Assembly (NCBI RefSeq): GCF_037126435.1 | Contig: NZ_CP147020.1 | Span: forward strand, 2,779,293 to 2,843,292 | DNA from: Bernardetia sp. ABR2-2B | Lineage (GTDB): Bacteria > Bacteroidota > Bacteroidia > Cytophagales > Bernardetiaceae | DNA: 64,000 nt | Reading direction: 5' to 3' | Shown here: in pieces, positions 4,529 through 42,164 of the stretch | Layout of the letters: the number at the start of each line of letters is the position of its first letter | Position numbering within the stretch: the first letter of the stretch is position 1 | The notes under the pieces: model-generated | The model's input: the letters and a program-made list of their open reading frames with translations, nothing else | Told to the model about the DNA's origin: nothing | The model's database searches: none | Program-made: the position numbers and the translations under genes

Positions 4529-7500
4529 TTACTTCTCCACCTCAACAGCAGGAATATTTTTATCAGCCACCAGTTTATTAAAAGCAGGAATATCAGTTTT
4601 CAAGATTTCGTAATACATCTTTAGCTGCTCATCGATTTTCTTGGTAATATCTGCTTTTACTTCTTTTGCGCCTTCGTTTGGTGGGAAATTTCCATAACCT
4701 ACCGTAGTTGCTAGTGCGCTTAATTTATTATTCAAACGAATAGGGAAGTTTAAAGGGTCTTGACCACTTCTATTTTGAGTTTGGTAAAGAGCTTTTTCAA
4801 TAGCTTCTAGTTCTTTAGTAATACTTTGAGCTGAATCTGCAACGGCTTTCCAATCTTCGTTTCCACTTGCTTTTGTTCTCCAATCGCTTAGGCTAGATTT
4901 GATTTTACGAATATTGATAATCGCTTCATGTGTTTCGGTAAGTTTGTCTCTTACTTCTGTCAAAAACACAAAACGCTCTTTCAAATCTGCATCCGAAACA
5001 CTCCAACGTGGGTCTTTCAAAAGTTTAAAATCTACTTCTTGTGTTTTTCCATCAAAGGTTACTTTTGCTTTATAGTCGTCTGGCATTGCCTGTACACCTT
5101 GTGTTCCACCAAACCAAAGAATCATTCCATCAAACTTTTTAGCATCTTCGTAGCGCATATTCCAAGTGATGGTGTTTGCTCCTTTTTGAGCTTTCAGTTT
5201 TTTGATATTTGAGTCTTTGTCTTTCGTTACTTTTTCGTCAGAAGATAATTTTTGAATTAAATTTCCGTCTTTATCCAAAATTTCAATTTCTAAAACCTTT
5301 GAAGTATCTGGTTTCTGATTTAGATAAAAATTCAATTTCATATTTCGTTCACTCAAATAAGTGTCGCTCGGCTTATAAACTAAGAAGTTTTCAGTTTTGA
5401 TTTTTTCTAAATCTGCTTTTTCAAAATTACGAAGAGGATTAAGGTCATCAAAAATCCAAAAACTCCTTCCTTGTGTAGAAACAATCAAATCATTTTCCTT
5501 AACCTGCATATCCGTAATTGGAACGATTGGCAAATTATAACGCATTGGTTGCCAATTAATTCCATCATCAAAAGAAACATAAACGCTGCTTTCAGTTCCT
5601 GCATACAAAAGACCATCACGAGTAGGGTCAAGTCTTAGCACTCTTGTAAAATCATCTTTTGGAATGCCATTTGTGATTTTTGTCCACGTCTTGCCATAAT
5701 CTTTTGTTTTGTATAAATAAGGCGCAAAATCATCAGACTTATAACGAGTAGCAGCAACGTAAGCAACTCCTTTTTTTGTTGGATGCAAATCAATAGAGTT
5801 TATCATTGCCCATTCTGGGAGTTTTTTTGGCGTGATGTTTTCCCAATTCTTGCCTCCGTCTTTTGTAATGTTGATAAATCCATCGTCCGAACCTGTCCAA
5901 ATCACACCACTTTCAGCAGGAGATTCAGCAGCAGCGAAAATAGTCCCATAATATTCTACACTTGTGTTGTCTTTCGTTATTTCTCCACCAGAAGACTGCA
6001 TTTTTGATTTATCATTTCTAGTCAAATCTGGACTAATGGCTTCCCAACTCTGCCCTTCATTGGTTGTCTTGAATAATACATTTGCAGCCGTATAAAGTGT
6101 ATTATTATCATTTGGAGAGAAAAAGATAGGGAAATTCCATTGAAAACGATATTTCAGTTCAGCAGCTCCCCAACCCATCGGATTATCTGGATAAACATCA
6201 ATCAGACGAGTTTCTTTAGTTTTATGGTTGTAACGCATCAAAAAACCATCATACGAACCACCATAAACGATGTCATTATCTTTTGGGTCGGCTACAATAT
6301 GTCCACTTTCTCCACCTGCCGTCGATTCCCATTCAGATTCATCTTGTGAAGAGATACGAATGGAAGAATTATCTTGCTGCCCTGCGTAAAGTCTGTATGG
6401 AAAAGAATTGTCTGTGCTTACTCTATAAAATTGCGCTGTTGGCTGATTCATATAAGTAGAAAAGCTCTTTCCTGCATTCTTAGAAACTTGCGCTCCTCCA
6501 TCATCTCCAATAATCATTCTTTCTGGATTTTGGGGGTCTAGCCAAAGGTCGTGATGGTCGCCGTGTGGTGTCTGTATTCTCTTATAACTTTTTCCTCCAT
6601 CAGATGAGAAGTGAAAATTTACATTCAAAACATAAACACCTTCTGGATTAGTTGGATGTGCATAAATACGAGTATAATACCACGCTCTCTGACGTAATTT
6701 TCGCTCATCATTTATCTTTTTCCAGTTTTTTCCTCCATCATCAGAACGAAAAACGCCACCTTCTTTAGATTCAATAATTGCCCAAACTCTGTCTTTTTGT
6801 GCAGCAGAAACAGTTACTCCAATTATTCCCAAAGCTCCTTTTGGCAATCCTTTTATAGATTCATCTTTTGTTAAGTTTTTCCATGTATCTCCACCGTCTG
6901 TACTTTTCCAAAGGGCAGAACCTTTTCCACCACTTTCAAGACTGTATGGAGTTCTACGGATTTTCCATGTACTTGCATAAATTACTCGTGGGTTCGTTGG
7001 GTCAAGAATTAAATCTACTGCACCTGCATCTTTGTTTGAGAATAAAATACGTTCCCAGTTTTTGCCTCCGTCTTTACTTCTATAAACACCTCTTTGCTCA
7101 CTAGAACCAAATAAATGACCCAAAACAGCAGCATAAACCAAGTCTGGATTTTTTGGATGAATACGAATGCGAGTAATATGACGAGAATCGTCTAAGCCTA
7201 TTTTTTGCCATGTTTTTCCTGCATCAAGGCTTTTCCAAGCTCCACTTCCGTGCGAAACATTTCCACGAACTGTTTTTTCTCCTCCTCCTACATAAATCAC
7301 ATTGTTGTCGTATTCACTAACAGCGACAGCACCAATAGAACCACCAAAGTCTGGGTCAGAAATATTTTCCCAACTCATTCCTCCGTCTTCAGTTCGCCAA
7401 ACGCCACCTCCTGCTGCACCAAAATAAAATAGGTCTGGATTTCCTGTTACACCTGTTACGGCTGCCGAACGTCCACCACGATAAGGACTGACTTGTCGCC

Positions 7501-7618
7501 ATTTTGTAGAAGAAAAATAAGTAGTGTCAGGCTTGAAAGTTTCTTGAGCTTTTGTGAATGTAATTGTACTTACTAAAAGCAATATTGCTATGAAGTATGT
7601 TTTTAATTGTTGTTTCAT
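4529..7618 (-). CDS. secreted VPS10/BNR-repeat beta-propeller protein
   Basis: A 1029-residue secreted protein. After a signal peptide (MKQQLKTYFIAILLLVSTIT...KAQ) come many BNR/Asp-box repeats of the form S.DGG..W, for example TEDGGMSWENIS, SLDAGKTWQKIG, SKDGGKNWERIL, STDGGDTWKNLT, SDDGGKNWKKIN, SDDGFINITKDGGKNWENI and SFDDGINW. These fold into one or two beta-propellers of the sortilin/VPS10 or 'glycosyl hydrolase-like' kind covering about residues 35-720. The last ~300 residues hold a beta-sandwich-like region and a helical tail. In Bacteroidota such proteins are often annotated as glycosyl hydrolases, but no catalytic residues are evident, so ligand or surface binding is as likely. It is probably monocistronic, with a 224-bp gap to uppP. 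Confidence 0.85.
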   Translation of the reverse strand: MKQQLKTYFIAILLLVSTITFTKAQETFKPDTTYFSSTKWRQVSPYRGGRSAAVTGVTGNPDLFYFGAAGGGVWRTEDGGMSWENISDPDFGGSIGAVAVSEYDNNVIYVGGGEKTVRGNVSHGSGAWKSLDAGKTWQKIGLDDSRHITRIRIHPKNPDLVYAAVLGHLFGSSEQRGVYRSKDGGKNWERILFSNKDAGAVDLILDPTNPRVIYASTWKIRRTPYSLESGGKGSALWKSTDGGDTWKNLTKDESIKGLPKGALGIIGVTVSAAQKDRVWAIIESKEGGVFRSDDGGKNWKKINDERKLRQRAWYYTRIYAHPTNPEGVYVLNVNFHFSSDGGKSYKRIQTPHGDHHDLWLDPQNPERMIIGDDGGAQVSKNAGKSFSTYMNQPTAQFYRVSTDNSFPYRLYAGQQDNSSIRISSQDESEWESTAGGESGHIVADPKDNDIVYGGSYDGFLMRYNHKTKETRLIDVYPDNPMGWGAAELKYRFQWNFPIFFSPNDNNTLYTAANVLFKTTNEGQSWEAISPDLTRNDKSKMQSSGGEITKDNTSVEYYGTIFAAAESPAESGVIWTGSDDGFINITKDGGKNWENITPKKLPEWAMINSIDLHPTKKGVAYVAATRYKSDDFAPYLYKTKDYGKTWTKITNGIPKDDFTRVLRLDPTRDGLLYAGTESSVYVSFDDGINWQPMRYNLPIVPITDMQVKENDLIVSTQGRSFWIFDDLNPLRNFEKADLEKIKTENFLVYKPSDTYLSERNMKLNFYLNQKPDTSKVLEIEILDKDGNLIQKLSSDEKVTKDKDSNIKKLKAQKGANTITWNMRYEDAKKFDGMILWFGGTQGVQAMPDDYKAKVTFDGKTQEVDFKLLKDPRWSVSDADLKERFVFLTEVRDKLTETHEAIINIRKIKSSLSDWRTKASGNEDWKAVADSAQSITKELEAIEKALYQTQNRSGQDPLNFPIRLNNKLSALATTVGYGNFPPNEGAKEVKADITKKIDEQLKMYYEILKTDIPAFNKLVADKNIPAVEVEK

Positions 7619-7715
7619 TTTTTGAGTTTTGTTTGTAAAGGGTTTTGATAGAGTATGATTTTTGAAGAATAATTTTACATCATAGTAAGCAGTTAAATAA
7701 GATTTAATATAAATG

Positions 7716-17996: not shown

Positions 17997-18066
17997 AAAC
18001 TTTAACTTTTTTAAAGTACAATCTCTTTTTAATACTCTATCAAATTGATTATCTTGTATAGTTATT
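17997..18066 (+). repeat. 70-nt direct repeat, left copy
   Basis: This copy begins AAACTTTAACTTTTTTAAAG and ends TTGTATAGTTATT. It aligns without gaps to 18950-19019 (56/70 identical by hand count, with both ends almost perfect). The two copies bracket the minus-strand gene at 18114-18866. Confidence 0.75.
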
Positions 18067-18949: not shown

Positions 18950-19019
18950 AAACTTTAACTTTTTTAAAGTACGCTATTTTTTCAATCTAATTTTGAATTG
19001 ATTATATTGTGTAGTTATT
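18950..19019 (+). repeat. 70-nt direct repeat, right copy
   Basis: This is the partner of 17997-18066. It ends 27 nt before the ATG of the next plus-strand gene (19047), so this copy may carry that gene's promoter. Confidence 0.75.
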
Positions 19020-22500: not shown

Positions 22501-23005
22501 AGAAGCCTTGCGCCGTGCCTTACAAAAAGCTATGCAACAAGGAAAAGGTAAGGACGGAAAAGAGGGTAAAGGCAAAGACGGCAAGGAAGGAAAAGAAGGA
22601 GGACAGAAAGGACAAAACGGAATGGGAGAAGGCGAAGGTGGCGAAAACGGAAACCAAGATGGTGGCTCTATGGGCAACGGTGGCAATATGTCTAAGATGA
22701 TAAAAGACATGGAAAAAACCGAAGAAGACCTAGTAAACAAACGCCTAACTCAAGAACTCATCGAACGCCAAAAGCAAATTATGACACGCCTTTTACAGTC
22801 TGAAAAAGCCGAAAGAGAACGTGATTTAGATGAAAAACGAGAAGCCGAACAAGCCAAAGCCACAAAAAGAAGAGTTCCACCACAGTTTGAGGAATATTTC
22901 AAGCAAAAGGAACAACAAATCGAACTTTTAAAAACGATTCCTCCTACGCTTAGTCCGTATTACAAGCAGCAAGTGAATGAGTATTTTAAGAAATTGGAGG
23001 AGTAA
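19538..23005 (+). CDS. DUF4175 family membrane protein with long coiled coil
   Basis: A 1155-residue protein typical of Bacteroidota DUF4175. Residues 1-90 hold two membrane helices (LLKGSLLAISAFLGAFAIVS; FISVSIFSLVYWVIIPIY) and a third lies near 160-180 (FLFIPIVLIAAFLVW). A beta-sandwich-like periplasmic part (~190-500) follows. A very long Glu/Lys/Gln-rich coiled coil spans about 510-820, a Met-rich helical part comes next, and a Gly/Lys-rich low-complexity stretch (about 1000-1060, GKGKDGKEGKEGG type) precedes a final charged helix ending YYKQQVNEYFKKLEE. The function is unknown. The last 51 bases are duplicated downstream at 24400-24450 and, more degraded, at 23579-23624. Confidence 0.85.
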   Translation: MKTSIEALYANIQSYKRKYYKNLLLKGSLLAISAFLGAFAIVSILEYFGNFSSTFRAVLFYSFISVSIFSLVYWVIIPIYQLFTMDKQLPHNEAAKQIGKYFPQVQDRLLNVLQLHSTNSNPQNSDLYQASIEQKASQFAPISFADAIEYEQNRRYLRFLFIPIVLIAAFLVWDLDFYKASAVRLVNYEQDFAPKAPFQFSLDTKQLIAFKGEDLNFDVNLSGEAFPNEIFLITENGRKIKLDKNSASSYSYQFTNIQRPFEFSLDGEGYTSKMYEIIVRERPQLRNFVAYLNYPNYTGKKDERLENTGNLIVPAGTQIEWRFQTQETEKLNFVSIISDDSINVKTAKKEEDGFLLQTTALKSEAFEIELENKYSKNKEKISYLLTVIQDEFPKVSLNQFQDSVMYDYLMLGGNISDDYGITNLRFNYRVRSGKKVSKYKSLSLNFNPNAINQQYFHQVELEPLELKAGDELEYFVQVWDNDAVRGRKSSKTGSYRFQIPKESEMRESVAETSKSAESQIDKTLEDAKELNKKIEKLAEDLKGKKKLSWQEQKELEKLLEDKKQLEEDIRKMQEQNKKLNEQQEKFTEQDERIAEKSKKLQELMDELMDEKTKELYDKLQELLNEETNSEEIKEVLEKLQNKEMNLEKELDRTLEMFKKLEVDKKMKDIAEQLEELAEEQKDLAEETKEQQQKEETDRRLSKEEKEKADSLLSEKQEELNEKFEEMKEQMEELDKMNEELKTPKDLEETKKKEEEVTEQQEQSKEQLQNNEKEKASQSQENAGEKMEQMAQQMKQMTSSSEMEQAQEDYDDLRQLLENLLKLSFEQEEIMNGFNEIDQRDPKYITLSQDQLKLKDDAQIVEDSLRTLAKRVFQIESFVMRELTDMNDYMGQVTQEVKDRKNPRMLASRQQSVMTSINNLALMLNDVLEQMQQSMSSMGMGKPKSGKPSGSPSMSEMQQSINQQIENLKKSGKSGRQLSEGLAKIAAQQEALRRALQKAMQQGKGKDGKEGKGKDGKEGKEGGQKGQNGMGEGEGGENGNQDGGSMGNGGNMSKMIKDMEKTEEDLVNKRLTQELIERQKQIMTRLLQSEKAERERDLDEKREAEQAKATKRRVPPQFEEYFKQKEQQIELLKTIPPTLSPYYKQQVNEYFKKLEE

Positions 23006-23008
23006 AAT
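22958..23008 (+). repeat. 51-nt direct repeat, parental copy (DUF4175 3' end)
   Basis: The 3' terminal 48 bases of the DUF4175 gene plus AAT, starting TATTACAAGCAGCAAGTGAA. It is repeated at 24400-24450 with one mismatch (50/51). Confidence 0.85.
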
Positions 23009-23018
23009 TATAAATTAG

Positions 23019-23555
23019 GTGAAGACAGAAAATAATAACACGAAGGATTATATCATCATGATAAGTTGTGCTATATCACAATTTTTATCATGGGTTTTTG
23101 CTATGTTTTTTTTAGGAATAGGCTACTCAAAAACGTTTTCTTTCTTGTTGATTTTGGCACTAATTATATGTTTTGGAGAATATTTATACTGGAAATTATA
23201 TAAGATCAAGACTTTGATTGTTTTTTTAGGCTTAGGTTTACATCTATTAACCATCATATTTCTTCCTATATACAGAGGCATACTTTATAATCATCTGTTG
23301 AATAAAAATTTAGTGGAGCATACTCTAGGTGTGGTAACAGGTGTGGATGACAATGAGGTATATTATATGTTTGAAGGAGACGATACTGAATATGTTGTGA
23401 AGAATGAAGTATATGAAGTTAATATAATAGGTGAAGAACTTTTTGATTTTGAAATAGGAGATAGTCTATTAATTTTTCATAATAGGTATTTTCATACTAT
23501 AAGCCTTCCTTTACCTTTGAATGATGCTGATAGATTCATAAAAGATAAAAAATGA
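23019..23555 (+). CDS. small membrane protein of unknown function
   Basis: A 178-residue protein whose longest frame starts with GTG at 23019; an ATG at 23058 is an alternative that begins just before the first membrane helix. Three or four hydrophobic helices (about residues 14-35, 39-56, 63-85) are followed by a C-terminal soluble domain of ~85 residues with beta character (GVVTGVDDNEVYYMFEGDD; FEIGDSLLIFHNRYFHT), possibly an SH3/OB-like barrel. No family was recognised. It lies between the true end of the DUF4175 gene and a degenerate copy of that end. Confidence 0.5.
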   Translation: MKTENNNTKDYIIMISCAISQFLSWVFAMFFLGIGYSKTFSFLLILALIICFGEYLYWKLYKIKTLIVFLGLGLHLLTIIFLPIYRGILYNHLLNKNLVEHTLGVVTGVDDNEVYYMFEGDDTEYVVKNEVYEVNIIGEELFDFEIGDSLLIFHNRYFHTISLPLPLNDADRFIKDKK

Positions 23556-23578: not shown

Positions 23579-23624
23579 ATAGCAGTAAGTCAATGAGTAT
23601 TTTAAGAAGTAGGAATGAGTAATT
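23579..23624 (+). repeat. degenerate copy of the DUF4175 3' end
   Basis: The core CAATGAGTATTTTAAGAAGT is clearly related to the last ~45 bases of the DUF4175 gene but has several substitutions and an indel. It sits 24 nt after the stop of the 178-aa gene. Confidence 0.65.
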
Positions 23625-23716: not shown

Positions 23717-24319
23717 ATGGATAATAAAGCAAAACCTTTCGCTTTCTTAACTGCTTTTTTTACAATATTATTTATGTTATTTCCAATGCTATTTCTTGAC
23801 ATATCTTTTGGGTCTAGTATGAAAAGTATTATATTCAGTACTGCTTTTGCTGTTGTAGGAGGTCTTTTATTTGTTGCTTTACCTTACTTTTTTAAAGATT
23901 TAAGTGATATATCTTGGAAGTCTGTATCAATAATTTGTTTAATTTCCATTTCTGCTTACTTTGGATTAGCTCTTATATTAAAAAAAACAAATAATGAAGA
24001 TGTATCTCAAACAGTAAATTTACATGAAAATTTAAAAGGTAATTGGAAGAGTGAAGTAGATAGCAATGCAGTATTAATGTTAAGGGTCATATCGAATGAT
24101 TTACTTACAATAAATGTTGAAACAGTAAACAAAGATACAGCTAATTATGATTACTCTGTATTTGAATGGAATTACTTTTTTCTCAATGAAAGAGAGATAT
24201 ATGGATCGGATTCTACGGGTGAGTATGAGTTAAATATGAAGATTGTAAATGACTCTACAATCATAGTAGAGGAAGAATCAGGGAATTTAATTTTTAAAAA
24301 AGAAAGTCCTGCTATTTGA
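23717..24319 (+). CDS. membrane protein with C-terminal lipocalin-like domain, unknown
   Basis: A 200-residue protein. Four hydrophobic segments occupy about residues 8-28, 35-58, 67-86 and the stretch between, and end in a basic KKTNNED turn. A soluble C-terminal domain of ~95 residues then starts LHENLKGNWKSEVDSNAVLM and continues with strand-like repeats (LLTINVETVN; YELNMKIVNDSTIIVEEES), similar to lipocalin-like 'GxW' domains. The function is unknown. It lies between the degenerate and the good copy of the DUF4175 3' end. Confidence 0.5.
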   Translation: MDNKAKPFAFLTAFFTILFMLFPMLFLDISFGSSMKSIIFSTAFAVVGGLLFVALPYFFKDLSDISWKSVSIICLISISAYFGLALILKKTNNEDVSQTVNLHENLKGNWKSEVDSNAVLMLRVISNDLLTINVETVNKDTANYDYSVFEWNYFFLNEREIYGSDSTGEYELNMKIVNDSTIIVEEESGNLIFKKESPAI

Positions 24320-24399
24320 TGACCAAAAATATAAATACCCATGAGCTTAGGTAAAATGATTGTTTTCTTTCTCATAAATCTACCTTTGCTCTTGGTTCA

Positions 24400-24450
24400 T
24401 ATTACAAGCAGCAAGTGAATGAGTATTTTAAGAAGTTGGAGGAGTAAAAT
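24400..24450 (+). repeat. 51-nt direct repeat, downstream copy (DUF4175 3' end)
   Basis: Near-perfect duplicate (50/51) of 22958-23008. Read in frame, the sequence from about 24379 still encodes STFALGSYYKQQVNEYFKK and the final LEE plus stop, so the similarity to a DUF4175 tail extends a little upstream of the identical part. Confidence 0.85.
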
Positions 24451-24459
24451 ATCTATTTT

Positions 24460-25404
24460 ATGAAAAAAATAACTTTGCTATTTTTAGTCTGTTTTTTATT
24501 TGGTTGTGCTGAAAAGCAAACTTCTAAAAGTATAGCTAGAAATTTTAGCATCACTACAAAACAGATTCAAAGAGAACCTAAAATTGATAAAAATCAAACA
24601 CAAGTAATTAAAGACTCTAGCTTTACTAAAGATTTAGTCCACAAAACTTATAAACTTGATGGCACTCAAACACAAATATTCAAAGATTATAATTTTGATA
24701 AAGGTGGATATTATATTCTCGGCACTATTGGAGAACACGACAGACATGTGAAAACCTTGTGTGATACTTTGGGAGAGTTTTATACTGATAAAATTGATAT
24801 CCTAAATGAATTTAAAAATGAGTGGGTATTTTCAGAACCAGACCCACATTTTGCTTGTGGCTATCATTATCGTATTTATATTTGTAAAGACGGTTTAGAA
24901 GTTGAAAGTGTATCAGTCAATTTGCAATGTAATACAATCGTTACAAAAAGTGGAGATTTTCATTTTGATTCAGAGAAATTAAGACATTTTTTAGGGCGTT
25001 TGAAAAAACCATTGAGTGGCGAAAAACAGTTTGACTCAATAGCTAAAGCAAGGGAGTATAGAAATAATCTTTTAAAGAATAATGAAAATTTAATAATGAC
25101 AGAAACTCCCAAGTGGACAGAATATGAAGGTAATTTTAGATTTGAATATAATTGTCCAGAAAATACAACTCATTGTAGTGAAAAAAGAAAAAGTTTGCTA
25201 CAAAAAATGCGTAAAGAAATAGCAAAAACATATCCTAATGAAGAATTTGAGCTTGAGCAAATGGGTGGTTCGCTAACGAGTATTATTGTAGAAGTACGTT
25301 GCAAAAAGCGTCTTTTTGATAAGTTTAAACTTTATGATAGGAGCATTTATAACACGTGGAATCCTTATCGTTGTTCTCTCAAAAGTTATTGGGTAGGTAG
25401 ATAA
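24460..25404 (+). CDS. lipoprotein of unknown function, upstream of barstar-like gene
   Basis: A 314-residue lipoprotein with signal MKKITLLFLVCFLFGC (lipobox Cys16). The mature part is hydrophilic. Residues ~25-75 contain a short internal repeat (DKNQTQVIKDSSFTKD versus LDGTQTQIFKDYNFDKG), the central part resembles a beta-domain (WVFSEPDPHFACGYHYRIYI), and the C-terminal ~110 residues are Cys-containing and basic (NCPENTTHCSEKRKSLLQKM ... CSLKSYWVGR). No family or nuclease motif was recognised. Its stop overlaps the start of the next gene (TAATG), so the two proteins are translationally coupled. Confidence 0.6.
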   Translation: MKKITLLFLVCFLFGCAEKQTSKSIARNFSITTKQIQREPKIDKNQTQVIKDSSFTKDLVHKTYKLDGTQTQIFKDYNFDKGGYYILGTIGEHDRHVKTLCDTLGEFYTDKIDILNEFKNEWVFSEPDPHFACGYHYRIYICKDGLEVESVSVNLQCNTIVTKSGDFHFDSEKLRHFLGRLKKPLSGEKQFDSIAKAREYRNNLLKNNENLIMTETPKWTEYEGNFRFEYNCPENTTHCSEKRKSLLQKMRKEIAKTYPNEEFELEQMGGSLTSIIVEVRCKKRLFDKFKLYDRSIYNTWNPYRCSLKSYWVGR

Positions 25405-25733
25405 TGCAATACACAGAAAAAATAAAAGACAAAGAGTATTTCGTAACAGAAATAAACGCTTCTAAATGTAAAGGCTATAAAAATTTGATAGAAGAATTTA
25501 GTCTTACTTTTTCTATTCCTTCTTCTGTTCCTAATCTTGATGCTTTAAATGATTTTTTGACTGGTTTGGAATGGATAGAACAAAAAAACTATAAACTCAT
25601 CATCAAGAATATGAATAAAGTAGAGAAAAATAGAAATGATTATGAAGGTTTTTTTTCTGTGATTGAACACTTAGAAGACCATTGGAAAGGCAAAGAAAAT
25701 GATTTGATTGTAGAATATGTAGGTAATTCTTAA
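25404..25733 (+). CDS. barstar-like protein
   Basis: A 109-residue acidic protein. The segment VPNLDALNDFLTGLEWIEQK followed by YKLIIKNMN and a helical C-terminus (FSVIEHLEDHWKGKENDLIV) follows the barstar family pattern (LDALxDxLTxL, then a beta strand xLxxxN). Barstar proteins inhibit extracellular-type ribonucleases such as barnase, and barstar-like genes are widely used as immunity genes. The start codon overlaps the stop of the upstream lipoprotein gene. No barnase-like gene is evident in the neighbourhood, so the partner is unknown. Confidence 0.65.
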   Translation: MQYTEKIKDKEYFVTEINASKCKGYKNLIEEFSLTFSIPSSVPNLDALNDFLTGLEWIEQKNYKLIIKNMNKVEKNRNDYEGFFSVIEHLEDHWKGKENDLIVEYVGNS

Positions 25734-31449: not shown

Positions 31450-31737
31450 ATGAATCTTTACGTATCAAATTTGCCTTATTCTATCTCAGAGGAAGAATTA
31501 GAGGCTGTATTTTCAGAACTTGGTGTAGTTACATCAACAAAAATTATCACAGACCGTGAAACACACCGTTCAAGAGGTTTTGGTTTCGTTGAAATGGAAT
31601 CAGAAGAAGATGGCGAAGCAGCTATCGAAGAATTGAATGGAATCGAACTTAAAGGTCGTGAAATCCAAGTAAAAAAAGCCATTCCTAGAGAAAACAGAGG
31701 TGGTGGAAACTTTGGTGGTGGTCGTCGTGACTACTAA
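31450..31737 (+). CDS. RRM-type RNA-binding protein 1
   Basis: A 95-residue single RNA-recognition-motif protein. RNP-2 is LYVSNL (residues 3-8) and RNP-1 is RGFGFVEM (42-49), both with the aromatic residues that stack on RNA bases. The C-terminal tail is Gly/Arg-rich (NRGGGNFGGGRRDY). Such small RRM proteins are abundant in Bacteroidota and cyanobacteria, where several are cold-induced post-transcriptional regulators. The next gene encodes a near-identical paralogue without the Gly-rich tail. A terminator (31848) separates the two, and each has its own promoter and leader hairpin. Confidence 0.93.
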   Translation: MNLYVSNLPYSISEEELEAVFSELGVVTSTKIITDRETHRSRGFGFVEMESEEDGEAAIEELNGIELKGREIQVKKAIPRENRGGGNFGGGRRDY

Positions 31738-32010: not shown

Positions 32011-32280
32011 ATGAATATTTACGTATCAAATTTGCCTTATTCTATTTCAGAAGAAGAATTAGAGGCAGTATTTTCAGAGCTTGGTGTAGTTACATCAACA
32101 AAAATCATTACAGACCGTGAAACACGTCGTTCAAGAGGTTTCGGTTTCGTAGAAATGGAAACAGAAGAAGATGGCTTAGCAGCTATCGAAGAATTAAATG
32201 GTATTGAACTTAGTTCTCGTGAAATCCAAGTAAAAAAAGCCATTCCTAGAGAAAATAGAAGCTATAACAATGCTTACTAA
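32011..32280 (+). CDS. RRM-type RNA-binding protein 2
   Basis: An 89-residue paralogue of the preceding protein, nearly identical over residues 1-80 (RNP-2 IYVSNL, RNP-1 RGFGFVEM) but with a short tail (NRSYNNAY) in place of the Gly/Arg-rich one. It binds single-stranded RNA by family inference. The tandem pair probably arose by duplication that included the promoter/leader; loss or gain of the tail may change RNA affinity or interactions. Confidence 0.93.
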   Translation: MNIYVSNLPYSISEEELEAVFSELGVVTSTKIITDRETRRSRGFGFVEMETEEDGLAAIEELNGIELSSREIQVKKAIPRENRSYNNAY

Positions 32281-33075: not shown

Positions 33076-33480
33076 TTATTCCCCTTGTGCTTCCCAAACT
33101 TCAGGGTTAGTAGTATAATTTGTACCTCCTAAGAAATACAAAACAATTACTCTTGAATACCTAAAATAAGCAGGTACAAAAAATATAAAACTTCCTAGAA
33201 TAGCTGTGAAAAACACCCATAAAGCAGGACGTTCTTTGGTCAGAATGTTTATAGCGACCATAACTGTAATCAAATGAGCCACAGTAAAAGCATAACTCAC
33301 ATACATAGCACTCCACCAAAAACCCATTGTTCGCTCAAATTTTAGGTTACAAACAGAACAATTCCTGTATGTTTTGGCAAAATTGAGACTAAAGGCAGGT
33401 TTTTCAAAAACATCTCCCTGTCTGCATCTAGGGCATTTACATTGCAGGATTCCTTGCAATTTTGAACGTTCTTTTTCCAT
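33076..33480 (-). CDS. DUF983 family protein
   Basis: A 134-residue protein with two zinc-ribbon-like CxxC pairs (CPRCRQGDVF near residue 13, CSVCNLKFER near 39) followed by two membrane helices (about 55-75 and 80-100) and VPAYFRYSRVIVLYFLGG. This is the DUF983 layout, common in Bacteroidota. I use the ATG at 33480; an upstream TTG frame is not needed. The start lies inside the previous gene (44-bp overlap), so the two are translationally coupled. Confidence 0.85.
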   Translation of the reverse strand: MEKERSKLQGILQCKCPRCRQGDVFEKPAFSLNFAKTYRNCSVCNLKFERTMGFWWSAMYVSYAFTVAHLITVMVAINILTKERPALWVFFTAILGSFIFFVPAYFRYSRVIVLYFLGGTNYTTNPEVWEAQGE

Positions 33481-33748
33481 TGCGTTTGTTTTTTTGTTTA
33501 TTACGATACCAGAAAAAAGCAACTGTTCCGATGAGTATATAAGGCATACATAACAGGTACAAAATCCCTGAATTTAGGCGTGTACTTGCTTCTCCTGCGC
33601 CATTATTGTAATTAGTTTCGACGGTTGCTCTACACATAGCACACTGCGCTTCGGCATCTATAATTCCGAATGTGAAAGTAAATGCTATCAAAACAACAAA
33701 AGCAAAGAGTAGTTTTGAAAGATTGATATTTGTAAATGAGCTTTTCAT
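33437..33748 (-). CDS. small membrane protein with periplasmic CxxC
   Basis: A 103-residue protein starting at the ATG at 33748. A signal or anchor helix (LLFAFVVLIAFTFTFGII) is followed by AQCAMCRATVETN and a second helix (LYLLCMPYILIGTVAFFW), ending in a basic tail. The CxxC on the outer face could bind metal or a thiol. The protein is conserved in Bacteroidota as far as I recall, but has no known role. It overlaps the DUF983 gene, which also carries CxxC motifs, suggesting a joint function. Confidence 0.65.
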   Translation of the reverse strand: MKSSFTNINLSKLLFAFVVLIAFTFTFGIIDAEAQCAMCRATVETNYNNGAGEASTRLNSGILYLLCMPYILIGTVAFFWYRNKQKNKRNGKRTFKIARNPAM

Positions 33749-33854
33749 AGTGATATATCTTATTTTTATTAATATTATTTTATCTCTCAACTTATTGATA
33801 CATACAAAGTTCGGTATTTTTTGAAATTTATTTAGTGATAAAAGTCATAATATT

Positions 33855-37171: not shown

Positions 37172-37714
37172 TCAATCTTGAACTGTACTTATCGATTCAA
37201 ACATATTTTTGGCAAGACTAGAGAGTGTGCTTTGTTCTTCTTTGAAAACCATCCATTCATACAAAAACTCTTTACCAACAATATGCGCCCCTACTCTACA
37301 TTTGGCTTGACTAAGCAAAAGTATTCTTTCAAAAAGAGCTACATTTTGATTACTGATACAGAATAGATAGTCAAATTTGGTGGAAATAAATTTTTGCACT
37401 GCCACTACATCCATATTTCCACTCCAATCCATTTGTTCTGGATGAACCAAAAAAAATCGATACGAAACTCGTAACTCTTCTTTTATTTTTTTGGTTTGAA
37501 ATAATATTACTTCTACTTTTTTATTATCTTTTTGAAGCTTTTCTATAATGGGACTGATTTGCTTTGCATCTTCTGCACTTTCTACTTGTAATAAAATACC
37601 AAAATGCTTTGCTTCCTCATAAGGCAAAGTTTGGTGTTTGGAAGCCGAAGGTCGAATTTGTCTATTCTTACGACTGACCAAATAATTTTTTATGGGATAA
37701 AGTAAATTATTCAT
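37172..37714 (-). CDS. conserved Bacteroidota protein (DUF6913-like)
   Basis: A 180-residue soluble protein beginning with a basic region (SRKNRQIRPS) and continuing with an alternating alpha/beta pattern: FGILLQVESAEDAKQISPII, VEVILFQTKK, FDYLFCISNQNVALFERILL and KCRVGAHIV. This looks like a small Rossmann-like fold and, from memory, fits DUF6913, a family of unknown function limited to Bacteroidota. The upstream region contains one copy of the 73-bp repeat bordering the ATPase cassette. Confidence 0.6.
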   Translation of the reverse strand: MNNLLYPIKNYLVSRKNRQIRPSASKHQTLPYEEAKHFGILLQVESAEDAKQISPIIEKLQKDNKKVEVILFQTKKIKEELRVSYRFFLVHPEQMDWSGNMDVVAVQKFISTKFDYLFCISNQNVALFERILLLSQAKCRVGAHIVGKEFLYEWMVFKEEQSTLSSLAKNMFESISTVQD

Positions 37715-37845
37715 TTTTCTATAACGCTGACAAAGGCTGTAAAATTATTATTTTACAAGAAATCACTTGATTATTCGTGGGTTATTCAAGATGATTTTTA
37801 TAAAAACTAATACCTTAATTTTACAAAATTAGTCATTTTTTGTCT

Positions 37846-37918
37846 AAGTGAGCAATTAAAAACTATCCAAAATGAATATTCTGTAAAATCTAATAGGGAG
37901 AATTTTTTGGGGTTGTTT
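37846..37918 (+). repeat. 73-nt direct repeat, left copy
   Basis: The sequence from AAGTGAGCAATTAAAAACTA to GGTTGTTT is repeated at 39992-40064 with only two mismatches (71/73). It lies 7 nt beyond the stop codon of the 239-aa gene at 37926. Confidence 0.95.
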
Positions 37919-37925
37919 AGATAAT

Positions 37926-38645
37926 TTATTTGCTCAAATTAAAAGACAAAATTTGAATAAATTTTCTAGCTTCTGGAATGTGTTTATAAACCTGTTCTAT
38001 ATTTTGAGGTATGATATGCTTTGCTAAAGTTCGCTGCAAATATTCTTTATTATAGGCTATTGGAATGCTATCAGTTCCCCAAACTTCTTGTTTTAAATCT
38101 GGTTTTGCATTAAAACTTCTGTATTTTTCTTTGTAATTTGGCATTGCTGCACGAACTAAAATTTCGATACAAGGAAATGGAATGAGAGGCAAAATAAGAG
38201 GTAGATATTCATAAGTGTAACCTTCTTTAATTCTGTTATCATAAAAATGCTCAATAGCTTTCCACAAAACAGGATATACAAAGTAAAACCATTCTTCAAA
38301 ATAAGAGTCCGTTTTTTCTAATATAATTTCAGAATCTGCATTAAAGATGAGTATATCTTGATTGGTAAGATACGTTCCTTTTTCATTTGCTAGTTTGAGA
38401 AATGCTGTTCCCAAAAACTCATTTATATCCTCTACAAATTGAGTTGTATGTTTATGATGCAAACCATAGCCTTCTTTTTTACAAGTTTGAAAGTAGTTTT
38501 GTACGACTTTAATAGTATCTATATTATCAAACCTATAAAATTCTTCTTCTAAACTATTTTCTTTGTGATGTTTTTCAAAAATAGCTTCTATAAGTTTTTT
38601 CAAAACATGGAAATCACTATCTCCATCACTAATAATTCCTATCAT
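37926..38645 (-). CDS. TOPRIM-like/DUF4276-like partner of the ATPase (uncertain)
   Basis: A 239-residue soluble protein. The N-terminus GIISDGDSDFHVLKKLIEAI has the shape of the first TOPRIM motif (acidic-G-x-x-D followed by a helix), and QDILIFNADSEIILE could be the second acidic motif. The middle is aromatic-rich (YFEEWFYFVYPVLWKAIEHF) and the C-terminus helical. TOPRIM-type or DUF4276/DUF4435-type proteins are the usual second component of two-gene OLD-like ATPase systems (for example PARIS and RloAB). It is 36 nt downstream of the ATPase gene and evidently co-transcribed. The acidic residues differ from the classical E-x-D-x-D set, so the assignment is tentative. Confidence 0.55.
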   Translation of the reverse strand: MIGIISDGDSDFHVLKKLIEAIFEKHHKENSLEEEFYRFDNIDTIKVVQNYFQTCKKEGYGLHHKHTTQFVEDINEFLGTAFLKLANEKGTYLTNQDILIFNADSEIILEKTDSYFEEWFYFVYPVLWKAIEHFYDNRIKEGYTYEYLPLILPLIPFPCIEILVRAAMPNYKEKYRSFNAKPDLKQEVWGTDSIPIAYNKEYLQRTLAKHIIPQNIEQVYKHIPEARKFIQILSFNLSK

Positions 38646-38681
38646 TTCTGTATAAATTTATTCTGTTGATGAAGGTTTATA

Positions 38682-39896
38682 TTATAATTCTCTTAAAATT
38701 CCATTATAAAAAAGTTCGGTAAGTGCATACTTTCGAACGTGTAAAACTCCATCCACTTCCTCAACCGTTCCTTCTTTCAATACACCCAAACGATTTATTT
38801 TTTTCAGAGCTTCATTTAGATTAGTAACTTCACTAACATATCCTTTTTTTCTTTTCAAATGAAAAGTATAAACAGAATCCAAATTATCTGAAAACTCACG
38901 AATTACAGAAGGACTATGAGAGGTAAGAATAAATTGTGTATTTTTTCCATTATCAGAAATATATTTTAGCCAACCTAAAAACTCTTTAACTTTACTTTGA
39001 TTGATTCCATTTTCGATTTCTTCTAACATAATAAGAGAAGGCTTTTTTTCTAAGGCACAAATCAACGATACAGCAGTCGCTTTCAAAAGTCCATCTGAAA
39101 TTGCATCAGCATCAAAATTGATACTATTATGATTTCCTAAATCAAACTGCCAAACTAATTTATCATCTTCTATTTCTACTCCTATTAAACTAGGTTCGAA
39201 AGTTCTTATAAAAGCCAAAAATCTACTGTACGAATTTTTCTCATTCTCTTTGATATAAATAATAAGAGCAGCAAATAATTCATTAAAATTAGAAATATCT
39301 ATTCTATTAGGTTCATTAAATTTTAGTTCTATATTTTTATCAATTTTGCTATGTTCTCTAAGTAGTTGAGGATAGAAATTGAAATAATACATAGTAGCTA
39401 ATGACTTAATTTTTTCATAAACTTTATGTTTAAATTTAAAATCATTAATTGTCTTGTTGTTGCTATCTTCAATCAATTTGTGCAATTTCAAGGAATAAAT
39501 ATCACATTTTTCATTTTTGAATTTTATTATTTCTTCATCAATTTCTATACTCATTATTTCAGATAATTCTACTAATTGATTCAAACCAATAGTATGAATT
39601 ATAAGACTATAACTCATTTTTACTTCTTTATCTAAATAAATTAATGTTGTTTCATAACCTAAAATAATATCTTTATCAGAATGCAAACTATGCTTATTGC
39701 TCAACAAATTTGTAAAAATGACTTCTTCATTTCTTTTATGAAAATTAGCTCTAACAATTTCCGAAAAAAAACTAATCGCTTTCAAAAGATTAGTTTTTCC
39801 AGAGTTATTCGAACCTATCAATAAAGTAAGGTCTTTGAGTTCTATTTCTGTGTCTAAATGTGTCTTGAAATTTTGTACTCTGAATTTGGTAAACAT
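38682..39896 (-). CDS. AAA15/AAA21-type (OLD/RecF-like) ATPase
   Basis: I choose the ATG at 39896 (404 residues), which places the first strand FTKFRVQNFKTHLDTEIEL at the N-terminus as in all relatives; the open frame continues upstream to 40001 without a sensible start. ABC/SMC-type ATPase motifs are complete: Walker A GSNNSGKT (28-35), signature-like ISDGLL (266-271), Walker B SLIMLEEIENG (Glu292/293) and H-switch TSHSPS (325-330). A variable middle region (about 90-240) replaces a coiled coil. Such ATPases occur with nuclease-like partners in phage-defence systems. The two genes lie precisely between 73-bp direct repeats. Confidence 0.85.
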   Translation of the reverse strand: MFTKFRVQNFKTHLDTEIELKDLTLLIGSNNSGKTNLLKAISFFSEIVRANFHKRNEEVIFTNLLSNKHSLHSDKDIILGYETTLIYLDKEVKMSYSLIIHTIGLNQLVELSEIMSIEIDEEIIKFKNEKCDIYSLKLHKLIEDSNNKTINDFKFKHKVYEKIKSLATMYYFNFYPQLLREHSKIDKNIELKFNEPNRIDISNFNELFAALIIYIKENEKNSYSRFLAFIRTFEPSLIGVEIEDDKLVWQFDLGNHNSINFDADAISDGLLKATAVSLICALEKKPSLIMLEEIENGINQSKVKEFLGWLKYISDNGKNTQFILTSHSPSVIREFSDNLDSVYTFHLKRKKGYVSEVTNLNEALKKINRLGVLKEGTVEEVDGVLHVRKYALTELFYNGILREL

Positions 39897-39991
39897 ATAA
39901 AAATGTAGTCTATGGTATTTTTTATTCTCTATAAACCAAATATAATTTATTTTTCTTAAATTTTTATTTAGATTACTTTTGCTTGTTTTCA

Positions 39992-40064
39992 AAGTGAGCA
40001 ATTAAAAACTATCCAAAATAAATATTCTGTAAAATCTAATAGGGAGAATTTTTTGGCGTTGTTT
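39992..40064 (+). repeat. 73-nt direct repeat, right copy
   Basis: Partner of 37846-37918 (two mismatches). It lies 96 nt upstream of the ATPase ATG, so it could also contain the promoter of the cassette. Confidence 0.95.
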
Positions 40065-40082
40065 GGGTAGAAGTTAGTTATT

Positions 40083-40562
40083 CTATTTTATTAATTGCTC
40101 ATTAATGATTTTGATATTATGGCGAATATCATCAGTTATATTTTGATAATAAATTGGTTCTTCTCCTTTATCAATCTGAAATTGTCGTTTAATTCCTAAT
40201 ATTTCAAATTCAAAAAAATATCCACCTTGGTCATAACAATCTGGACAGCCAAAACCACTTCTAGGATCAAGTATCATAATTAAAGGTACTCGTAATTTAT
40301 AAAAATCATAATCTTTTATACCCTCTTGATTTATAATTTTTTGACCGAGTATTTCTAGTTTTTCATCTTTGAATCTAAAATCCCAAAAAGATGTTGTATC
40401 AACCAAGATAGTTTTATCACTAACTTCATACATTGTAGCGCAATTTCCATCACACATCCCTGCAAAAAAACCAAAAGTAGTTTTATTTGGAGTAACTTCT
40501 ATTAGTGAAAGTCCAACGATGAAAACAGGAATTATCAATAACTTACCTAGTAATTTCTTCAT
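40083..40562 (-). CDS. membrane-anchored or secreted protein, unknown
   Basis: A 159-residue protein with an N-terminal hydrophobic helix (LLGKLLIIPVFIVGLSLIEV) that may be a signal anchor. The mature part has CDGNCATMY, then FGCPDCYDQGGYFFEFEIL, giving two C-x2/3-C pairs that could form disulphides or bind metal. No family was recognised. Its own promoter is suggested by TATCTTTG on the minus strand at 40593-40600, 31 nt before the ATG. Confidence 0.55.
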   Translation of the reverse strand: MKKLLGKLLIIPVFIVGLSLIEVTPNKTTFGFFAGMCDGNCATMYEVSDKTILVDTTSFWDFRFKDEKLEILGQKIINQEGIKDYDFYKLRVPLIMILDPRSGFGCPDCYDQGGYFFEFEILGIKRQFQIDKGEEPIYYQNITDDIRHNIKIINEQLIK

Positions 40563-40658: not shown

Positions 40659-42164
40659 CTACCCAAAAACCACCTTCTGTTGAGTATCCAACTTAGAAAC
40701 AGCTTTTGCTTCTAATTCAGTATGTCCCATCAACTGCAAATCAATCTGACGAGCAGCTTCACGCCCTTCTGAAATTGCCCAAACGACAAGCGATTGCCCT
40801 CTTCTCATATCTCCTGCTGCAAAAACTTTAGGGTTTTGAGTTTGGTAATTTTGTGCTTGAATATTTCCTTTTTCGTCTAACAAAACACCTAGTTCTTCTA
40901 GCATTTCAGCACGTTCTGGATGTAGAAAACCCATCGCCAAAAGCACCAAATCACAGGGAACAATTCTTTCTGTTTTTGGATCTTCTTCAAAACCCATTTT
41001 TCCATTTTCTGTTTTCCATTCTATATCGACGAGTTTTACTCCTGTCAGTTCGCCTTTTTCATTGCCTACAAATTCTTTTGTCAGAATAGACCAAGTACGC
41101 TCACAGCCTTCTTCATGGGAAGACGAAGTTCGCATCATCATAGGCCAGTTGGGCCAAGGCGTGTTTTCTGCTCGTTCTTTGGGAGGCATTGGCATAAGTT
41201 CGATTTGTGTTACTGATTCTGCTTTGTGTCTGTTAGACGTTCCTACACAATCCGAACCTGTATCTCCTCCTCCGATTACGACTACTTTTTTGTTTGTTGC
41301 CAAAATTTCGCCTTGTTGATAGCTATTTCCTGCGTGGTCGTAGTTGAGTTTTTTGTTTGCTGTTCGTTTGTTTTGCTGACTCAAAAAATCCATTGCAAAA
41401 TGTACGCCTTTGAGTTCTCGTCCTTTAATATTCAAATCTCTAGGAACAGTAGAACCACCACAAAGTAAAATAGAATCAAATTCTTCCATCAAACCTTTGA
41501 CACGAACATTTACACCTACATTCGCATTCGTTTTGAAAATAATACCTTCGGATTTCATTATTTTCAAACGACGGTCTATGATATTTTTTTCTAATTTAAA
41601 ATCAGGTATTCCATAACGAAGCAATCCACCAATAGCATCAGCACGTTCGAAAACAGTTAGCGTATGTCCTGCTTTGTTGAGTTGTGAAGCTGCTGCAAGT
41701 CCTGCTGGTCCTGAACCTACGACAGCTACTTTTTTTCCTGTTCGTACTTCTGGAACTCTTGGTTTTACATAGCCTTTTTCGTATGCTTTTTCTATAATAA
41801 ATCGCTCAATCGCCTCTATGGCTACGGCAGGTTTATTGATTGCCAAAACACAAGACGATTCACAAGGTGCAGGACAAATCCTTCCTGTAAACTCTGGAAA
41901 ATTATTTGTAGAAGCGAGTATTTCATAAGCCTGTTCCCAGTTTTTTTGATATACAGCATCATTAAAATCTGGAATAATATTGCCCAAAGGACAACCACTA
42001 TGGCAAAAAGGAACGCCACAATCCATACAGCGTGAAGACTGTTCGACGGCTTTGTCTTTAGAAAGTGTTTCTTCAACTTCTAAATAATCTTTTACCCTTT
42101 CGTTTATATTTCTTTTGGTGGGTATATCTCTAGTAAATTCTATAAATCCTGTTGGTTTTCCCAT
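40659..42164 (-). CDS. gltD: glutamate synthase small subunit
   Basis: A 501-residue NADPH-dependent flavoprotein that feeds electrons to GltB. The N-terminal cysteine-rich domain SRCMDCGVPFCHSGCPLGN and a second set (GRICPAPCESSCVL) bind two 4Fe-4S clusters. The FAD-binding GSGPAGLAAASQL and NADPH-binding VVIGGGDTGSDCVGTSNRH folds follow, with the C-terminal VFAAGDMRRGQSLVVWAISE. The length is normal. It lies downstream of gltB on the same strand with a 195-bp gap that contains a REP-like repeat, consistent with a gltBD operon. Confidence 0.97.
   Translation of the reverse strand: MGKPTGFIEFTRDIPTKRNINERVKDYLEVEETLSKDKAVEQSSRCMDCGVPFCHSGCPLGNIIPDFNDAVYQKNWEQAYEILASTNNFPEFTGRICPAPCESSCVLAINKPAVAIEAIERFIIEKAYEKGYVKPRVPEVRTGKKVAVVGSGPAGLAAASQLNKAGHTLTVFERADAIGGLLRYGIPDFKLEKNIIDRRLKIMKSEGIIFKTNANVGVNVRVKGLMEEFDSILLCGGSTVPRDLNIKGRELKGVHFAMDFLSQQNKRTANKKLNYDHAGNSYQQGEILATNKKVVVIGGGDTGSDCVGTSNRHKAESVTQIELMPMPPKERAENTPWPNWPMMMRTSSSHEEGCERTWSILTKEFVGNEKGELTGVKLVDIEWKTENGKMGFEEDPKTERIVPCDLVLLAMGFLHPERAEMLEELGVLLDEKGNIQAQNYQTQNPKVFAAGDMRRGQSLVVWAISEGREAARQIDLQLMGHTELEAKAVSKLDTQQKVVFG

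Follow-up and report, generated by a model that had tools for sequence, protein, structure and literature searches.

An ATPase/Toprim-like gene pair between two copies of a stranded glycosyltransferase gene tail: a candidate insertion with long target duplication in Bernardetia

Two genes of Bernardetia sp. ABR2-2B, encoding an ATPase and a Toprim-like protein, lie between two nearly identical direct copies of the 3' end of a glycosyltransferase (GT) gene. Because the pair sits between two copies of the tail of an unrelated gene, insertion without a transposase, by an event that duplicates its landing site, is suggested. We favour, with modest confidence, a reading in which a split OLD/PARIS-like module was inserted with a long target duplication (about 73 bp) into a stranded GT tail beside gltD. 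Unless a contig or locus is named, positions are those of the window, the whole 64,000-nt stretch of DNA that was analysed; its own genome is G000 in a set of seven genomes of the genus (G000 to G006). The locus is made up as follows.

37172-37714, minus strand: DUF6913 gene, the left flank; present in 7/7 genomes of the genus, with differing neighbours
37846-37918, plus strand: 73-bp direct repeat, left copy; the GT gene tail at 37856-37924 translates as LKTIQNEYSVKSNRENFLGLFR followed by a stop (blastx to GT residues 354-375)
37919-39991, no strand: inserted segment between the repeat copies, 2073 bp, GC 26.5% vs 32.5% for the window
37926-38645, minus strand: gene for a 239-aa Toprim-like protein, with DGxxD after strand 1, DxE after strand 3 and E161 after strand 4 of the predicted model
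38682-39896, minus strand: gene for a 404-aa ABC/OLD-type AAA_21 ATPase; the Toprim-like gene follows directly downstream
39992-40064, plus strand: 73-bp direct repeat, right copy; the GT gene tail at 40002-40070 translates as LKTIQNKYSVKSNRENFLALFG followed by a stop
40083-40562, minus strand: 159-aa gene adjoining the right repeat, found in this genome only among the seven of the genus
40659-42164, minus strand: gltD, glutamate synthase small subunit, which adjoins a single GT tail in G005 too

A sequence-only reading had proposed two direct repeats in the same orientation with only two co-oriented genes between them, and both points were reproduced. The repeats, found again independently, are 71/73 identical, and both genes are on the minus strand. 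An independent repeat search returned a family at 37837-37923 and 39983-40069 (92% over 87 nt, 2146 from start to start), and a 36-bp repeat core occurs twice in the window at up to 3 mismatches, with 0 occurrences expected from 100 shuffles. That reading had the genes the wrong way round: it is the stop codon of the 239-aa gene, not its start, that lies 7 bases from the left repeat, and the start of the ATPase gene, not its end, that lies 95 bases (rather than 96) from the right one. We place the ATPase start at the ATG ending at 39896 by homology with G002, where the automatic open reading frame call gave a TTG at 40001. The absence of an integrase or transposase from the insert also held. 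The att-like repeats enclose two genes, neither of them a recombinase, and a Pfam scan of 15 neighbouring proteins (30.4-52.8 kb, leaving out the small ORFs at 32011-32280 and 33437-33790) found no recombinase either. A discrete insertion with a duplicated target is supported, and the earlier interpretation as a whole is borne out in part.

Where it needs amending is in the nature of the target, which had been taken for plain intergenic DNA. A genome search for further copies of the 73-mer, as had been proposed, returned three strong matches (E 1.3e-39, 5.5e-30 and 5.8e-15; next best 0.005), which rules out a common intergenic repeat. The third strong copy, G000:C1:2889077-2889140, coincides with the 3' end of the gene for a 375-aa group-1 GT, and both window copies, read in frame on the plus strand, correspond to the last 22 codons and stop of the GT protein. 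The repeat is coding-derived, and the target is the stranded 3' tail of a GT gene. A full-length GT match occurs once per genome in 7/7 genomes of the genus, and in G000 about 70 kb separate the repeats from the intact gene, which has the inverse orientation. The repeat begins with 10 bases, AAGTGAGCAA, that are non-GT sequence and common to both copies; because of this shared prefix, and because the copies differ at only 2/73 positions, we consider them to be derived from each other once the GT tail was stranded. An inverted GT gene some 70 kb away would fit an inversion that duplicated its ends, with gene order too scrambled for proof: reconstruction of the GT-to-repeat region as a single inversion failed against the gene orders of G001 and G002.

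The stranded tail is probably older than the insertion, as judged by sequence comparison with G005. That genome has one GT tail (L097 181-248) about 465 bp from gltD, oriented as the right repeat is here and 95.6% identical to the left repeat over 68 bp; the ATPase and Toprim-like genes are both absent from G005. Over a 55-bp core, any two of the left repeat, the right repeat and the G005 tail share 51-53 sites, against 45-52 shared with the seven GT genes, and on this account the stranding probably came before the arrival of the cassette, although the left repeat agrees with the GT tail of G003 at 52/55 sites, hardly fewer than the 53/55 for the G005 tail. G005 falls short of a full empty site: its left flank does not match, and only 180 bp of contig precede the tail. 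Among the relatives in the genus no complete empty site was seen, none of those examined having both flanks and gene order being scrambled. That the GT gene itself once stood beside gltD is a guess read from G003, both of whose contigs end near the supposed join.

Comparison with related genomes, another check that had been proposed, found the pair absent or at another site. It is present in two of the seven genomes, the G002 copies being 71% and 68% identical to those of G000. In G002 it lies between an isochorismatase-like gene (named by sequence resemblance) and a 146-aa gene, and these two genes are adjacent in G003 and G005 (5 and 81 bp apart), so that the G002 site is empty there. G004 has a decayed 3' remnant of the Toprim-like gene at the same site (L099 5352-5561; 70 residues, 93% to G002), and G001 has a different small gene between the isochorismatase-like and 146-aa genes. 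The 146-aa gene stands in another context in G000, and G006 gave no match. The G002 junctions have only short AAATA(G/A)AAAA-like similarity and no long duplication. Since the G002 pair sits elsewhere without long repeats, the repeats of the window belong to the landing site and not to the module.

The pair also occurs far outside the genus. The Toprim-like protein was found in 0/394 other genomes drawn evenly from the phylum (G002, a known positive, evidently lay outside the draw), a first scan of genome contigs gave no match, and none was seen in viral contigs and phages. A second, profile scan of genome contigs returned six Toprim-like loci in Oscillatoriales, Hormoscilla and Caldilineaceae, and one Toprim-like locus lies on a Planktothrix plasmid. 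An ATPase gene is immediately upstream of, and co-oriented with, the Toprim-like gene in 7/7 distant loci; at one of them (L118) the Toprim-like frame is without its first 48 residues. The plasmid pair (L113 2683-4702) lies within a run of DUF3883, DUF1156 (HmaB-like) and DUF499 genes, with DUF3883 on one side of it and DUF1156/DUF499 on the other. At two Caldilineaceae loci (L117 and L119, about 5700-7710) the pair seems, by eye, to be inside a sugar ABC-transporter operon, with the binding protein before it and the permease after. By sequence, the pair is a conserved two-gene family of this genus, Cyanobacteria (Oscillatoriales, Hormoscilla) and Caldilineaceae. No bracketing repeat comparable to that of the window was found within 1.5 kb on each side in the seven distant loci or in G002, the best other being 39 bp (E 0.007). 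This rules out the repeats as a conserved part of the module, and goes against the earlier proposal that they define the mobile unit.

The ATPase matches Pfam AAA_21 (PF13304) at 4.4e-22. Among defence ATPase models it matches PDC-M07A, HEC-01A, AriA (1.2e-22) and mad3, none of them specifically, and its best NCBIfam match, MAD3, scores 70.7 bits vs a cut-off of 420. For the Toprim-like protein no family match was found above the Pfam cut-off, in NCBIfam or in PHROGs, the family has no sequence match in the PDB, and PADLOC gave weak matches only, to PDC-M31B (32 residues) and Csn2. An alignment of eight Toprim-like sequences has 20 invariant columns, including D104, E106 and E161, and D7, G8 and D11 are invariant in a six-sequence alignment. 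Toprim domains carry acidic residues after strands 1 and 3. The AlphaFold model built from eight sequences (pLDDT 84.7, pTM 0.84; from two sequences, pLDDT 36.8) has strands at 2-5, 36-39, 98-101 and 150-153 that alternate with helices, with acids after strands 1 and 3. Structural matches to OLD Toprim domains (6njx, Z 6.0, 150 residues aligned at 4.2 A; 6nk8, Z 5.6, 154 aligned at 4.3 A) rank below short-Argonaute chains (Z 6.8), and values of Z < 8 may mean a common arrangement only. Foldseek returned nothing for the model at E <= 0.001. The structure comparison is only suggestive of a Toprim fold for the 239-aa protein.

We infer both the order of events and the break mechanism of the insertion, as well as a defence role for the pair. 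The pre-existing site would have been the stranded GT tail beside gltD, and a break-and-fill type of event, with no integrase, would have duplicated about 73 bp of target, namely the GT tail and the 10 bp of local sequence before it. In the proposed function, the ATPase would sense an invader and license the Toprim-like protein to cleave nucleic acid. A duplication inside a gene is harmless if the gene end is restored, so surviving insertions would be expected in gene tails or between genes. Against this explanation stands the G002 insertion of the same pair without a long duplication. Moreover, target duplication and homology borne by a donor leave nearly the same trace.

The latter is the basis of the main rival, homology-facilitated illegitimate recombination, which we consider rather unlikely. 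An incoming fragment carrying its own GT tail and the pair would have recombined at the tail and been joined illegitimately just upstream, leaving two tails, and repeated use of a locus would produce small arrays of gene plus core-gene tail. What lends it weight is a second tail array in the window, behind a 1155-aa DUF4175 gene.

22949-23008, plus strand: 3' end, with stop, of the 1155-aa DUF4175 gene; second example of a tail bracket
23581-23622, plus strand: 1155-aa gene tail, middle copy, decayed; the 178-aa and 200-aa genes lie on either side
24391-24450, plus strand: downstream copy (93%) of the 1155-aa gene tail, after the small genes at 23019-23555 and 23717-24319

The order in G000 is tail, 178-aa gene, decayed tail, 200-aa gene, tail, 314-aa gene and Barstar-like gene; neither of the two small genes between the DUF4175 tails has a Pfam match. 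A 109-aa Barstar-like immunity gene (25404-25733) ends the array, as the illegitimate-recombination account can also cite in its favour, and follows it in G000, G003 and G006. Behind the DUF4175 gene, G006 has a different gene (137 aa) and, after it, a further stretch of 71 bp that matches the end of the G000 gene (94%), and G003 has a single tail together with a 310-aa gene, to which a gene of G002 is, by eye, related. G005 and G006 also seem, by eye, to have a gene type in common there. Judged from the nucleotide comparisons, the locus is of the same architecture as the GT-tail bracket, with another gene tail and, in G006, another inserted gene; this likeness, and the single tail of G003, speak for the favoured insertion as well.

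Thus the genes behind the 1155-aa core gene differ among several relatives, and at a few positions the extra tail copies match, by eye, the tails of other species rather than the gene's own end, both of which are in keeping with donor-borne tails; informative sites are, however, few in 60-70 bp. Sections of PMC5361080 propose such recombination for Vibrio effector/immunity arrays. At the GT locus itself the evidence runs the other way. The GT tail adjoins the pair in no genome of the genus (n=7) but the window's own, and the 10-bp non-GT prefix in both window repeats is not expected from a donor tail. A broader and more doubtful reading, which we offer as speculation, is an undescribed recombinase-free cassette system in the genus: accessory and defence genes would lodge behind core genes, and every captured unit would bring with it the final 57-73 bp of that core gene in copy. 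Small arrays would grow in this way, in the order core gene, tail, gene, tail, gene; their content would differ from species to species and could later be shuffled or lost by recombination between tails.

Attachment sites often lie within gene 3' ends. The GT tail could on this ground be the attL and attR of a site-specific mobile element with an integrase acting in trans, and the in-frame stop after both repeat copies would fit. We think this improbable: the pair occurs in G002 and at the seven distant loci without comparable repeats within 1.5 kb, the second bracket is built on the unrelated tail of the 1155-aa gene, and neither the insert nor the neighbouring proteins that were scanned include an integrase.

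Wider scans place the bracket among other repeats of the genus, and their counts of repeat pairs are a further point for the favoured insertion. Repeat pairs of 35-300 bp, at least 80% identical, within 12 kb and enclosing an ORF, numbered 21 direct and 7 inverted in G000 (944 kb), 5 and 3 in G001 (380 kb) and 2 and 0 in G002 (180 kb), the unit being pairs and not independent loci. Control genomes of the order (200 kb each) gave 0 and 0 (G018) and 1 and 2 (G037), these controls differing in GC (0.37 and 0.52 vs 0.32) and one of them also having a duplicated gene tail. Gene tails account for only a minority of the 21 direct pairs in G000. One candidate tail bracket, of an 812-aa gene (2692633/2698913), was not counted; G000 has a second gene, 70% alike, at another place, and for this reason the tail may be a paralogue remnant. 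At 17997-18066 and 18950-19019 in the window, a 70-bp direct repeat (80%) lies around a 266-aa gene, and no coding match was found for it. The neighbouring RRM-type RNA-binding protein genes at 31450-31737 and 32011-32280 are 91% identical over 271 bp.

A second scan took ORFs of at least 120 aa and asked whether a 90-bp window of each had a non-coding copy. Such copies were found for 6/718 3' ends, 4/718 5' ends and 1/3590 interior draws in G000, for 5/275, 1/275 and 6/1375 in G001 and for 1/130, 1/130 and 0/650 in G002; the controls gave 0/170, 0/170 and 0/850 (G018) and 1/130, 1/130 and 0/650 (G037). Pooled over the three genomes of the genus, the counts are 12/1123 for 3' ends, 6/1123 for 5' ends and 7/5615 for the interior, with no clear difference between 3' and 5' ends and with some of the matches due to a dispersed repeat, to terminators or to remnants of paralogues. 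The opening codons of a 476-aa ORF (G000:C1:2973271-2973360) have matches of 38-65 bp at 12 non-coding sites within 944 kb and are probably part of a dispersed repeat. Seven genes have a 3'-end copy more than 15 kb away, five of these inverted and two not. The four clearest stranded tails, all inverted and 49-98 kb from their parents, are those of the GT and a 608-aa gene (G000), a 252-aa gene (G001) and a 746-aa gene (G002). In the 608-aa case, G000:C1:2946362-2946698 and 2995363-2995647 are inverted duplicated pieces with the gene tail, 49 kb from the parent.

The very scrambled gene order of the genus, and the occurrence of stranded tails far from their parents that bracket nothing, would suit a bracket left behind by two independent rearrangements, or by tandem duplication and subsequent loss, with the gene pair there by coincidence, an account to which we give little credence because repeats that share a 10-bp non-GT prefix and differ at 2/73 positions derive from each other after the stranding.

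How defence genes move without integrases is an open question, and long target duplications have been reported for Helicobacter restriction-modification genes. The insertion with target duplication that we favour would add to these cases a split module, ATPase and Toprim-like protein, from a genus unrelated to Helicobacter. On this model a gene tail may serve as the duplicated stretch, since a duplication would be tolerated when it restores the end of the gene. The locus also brings to light a two-gene family whose Toprim-like member matches nothing well in Pfam, NCBIfam, PHROGs or PADLOC.

Several known systems invite comparison. As regards integron gene cassettes, the repeat here is explained as a gene tail, and no integrase is present among the scanned neighbours. 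Like the Vibrio T6SS orphan immunity arrays, as described in portions of PMC5361080, the DUF4175 array has accessory genes stacked behind a core region with older pieces pushed back; the core genes here, however, are not known toxins and the units end in a core-gene-tail copy. MADS differs in that the MAD3 match is below the curated cut-off and no methylase is present among the scanned neighbours. PARIS consists of the AriA ATPase and the AriB Toprim protein, and in excerpts of PMC10568477 a 'Class 4 OLD' with separate genes is proposed. Here too there are two genes, for an ABC/AAA_21-type ATPase and a separate Toprim-like protein, although the latter matched no AriB model in the libraries searched.

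Nobusato et al. (2000) reportedly described insertion with long target duplication in Helicobacter pylori, and Furuta et al. (2011) are said to have described DNA duplication associated with inversion. The latter is resembled by the inverted gene-end copies tens of kb apart, as with the GT tail here. According to parts of PMC3874152, PMC1643837, PMC3031569 and PMC3154945, insertion of some restriction-modification systems leaves long target duplications, variable in length and around 100 bp in order of magnitude, involves no transposase and is connected with rearrangements; a section of PMC4978471 also covers insertion with long target duplication. The present case differs from these in that the genes are an AAA_21 ATPase and a Toprim-like protein, restriction-modification genes being those of the reported cases and not a structural requirement, and also in its target, a stranded gene tail, in its unrelated genus and in having no strain pair that differs by the insertion alone. 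It resembles them in having no transposase, a direct duplication of tens to about 100 bp, genes of defence type and a rearrangement-rich genome, the flanking direct duplication being 73 bp long with 71/73 positions identical.
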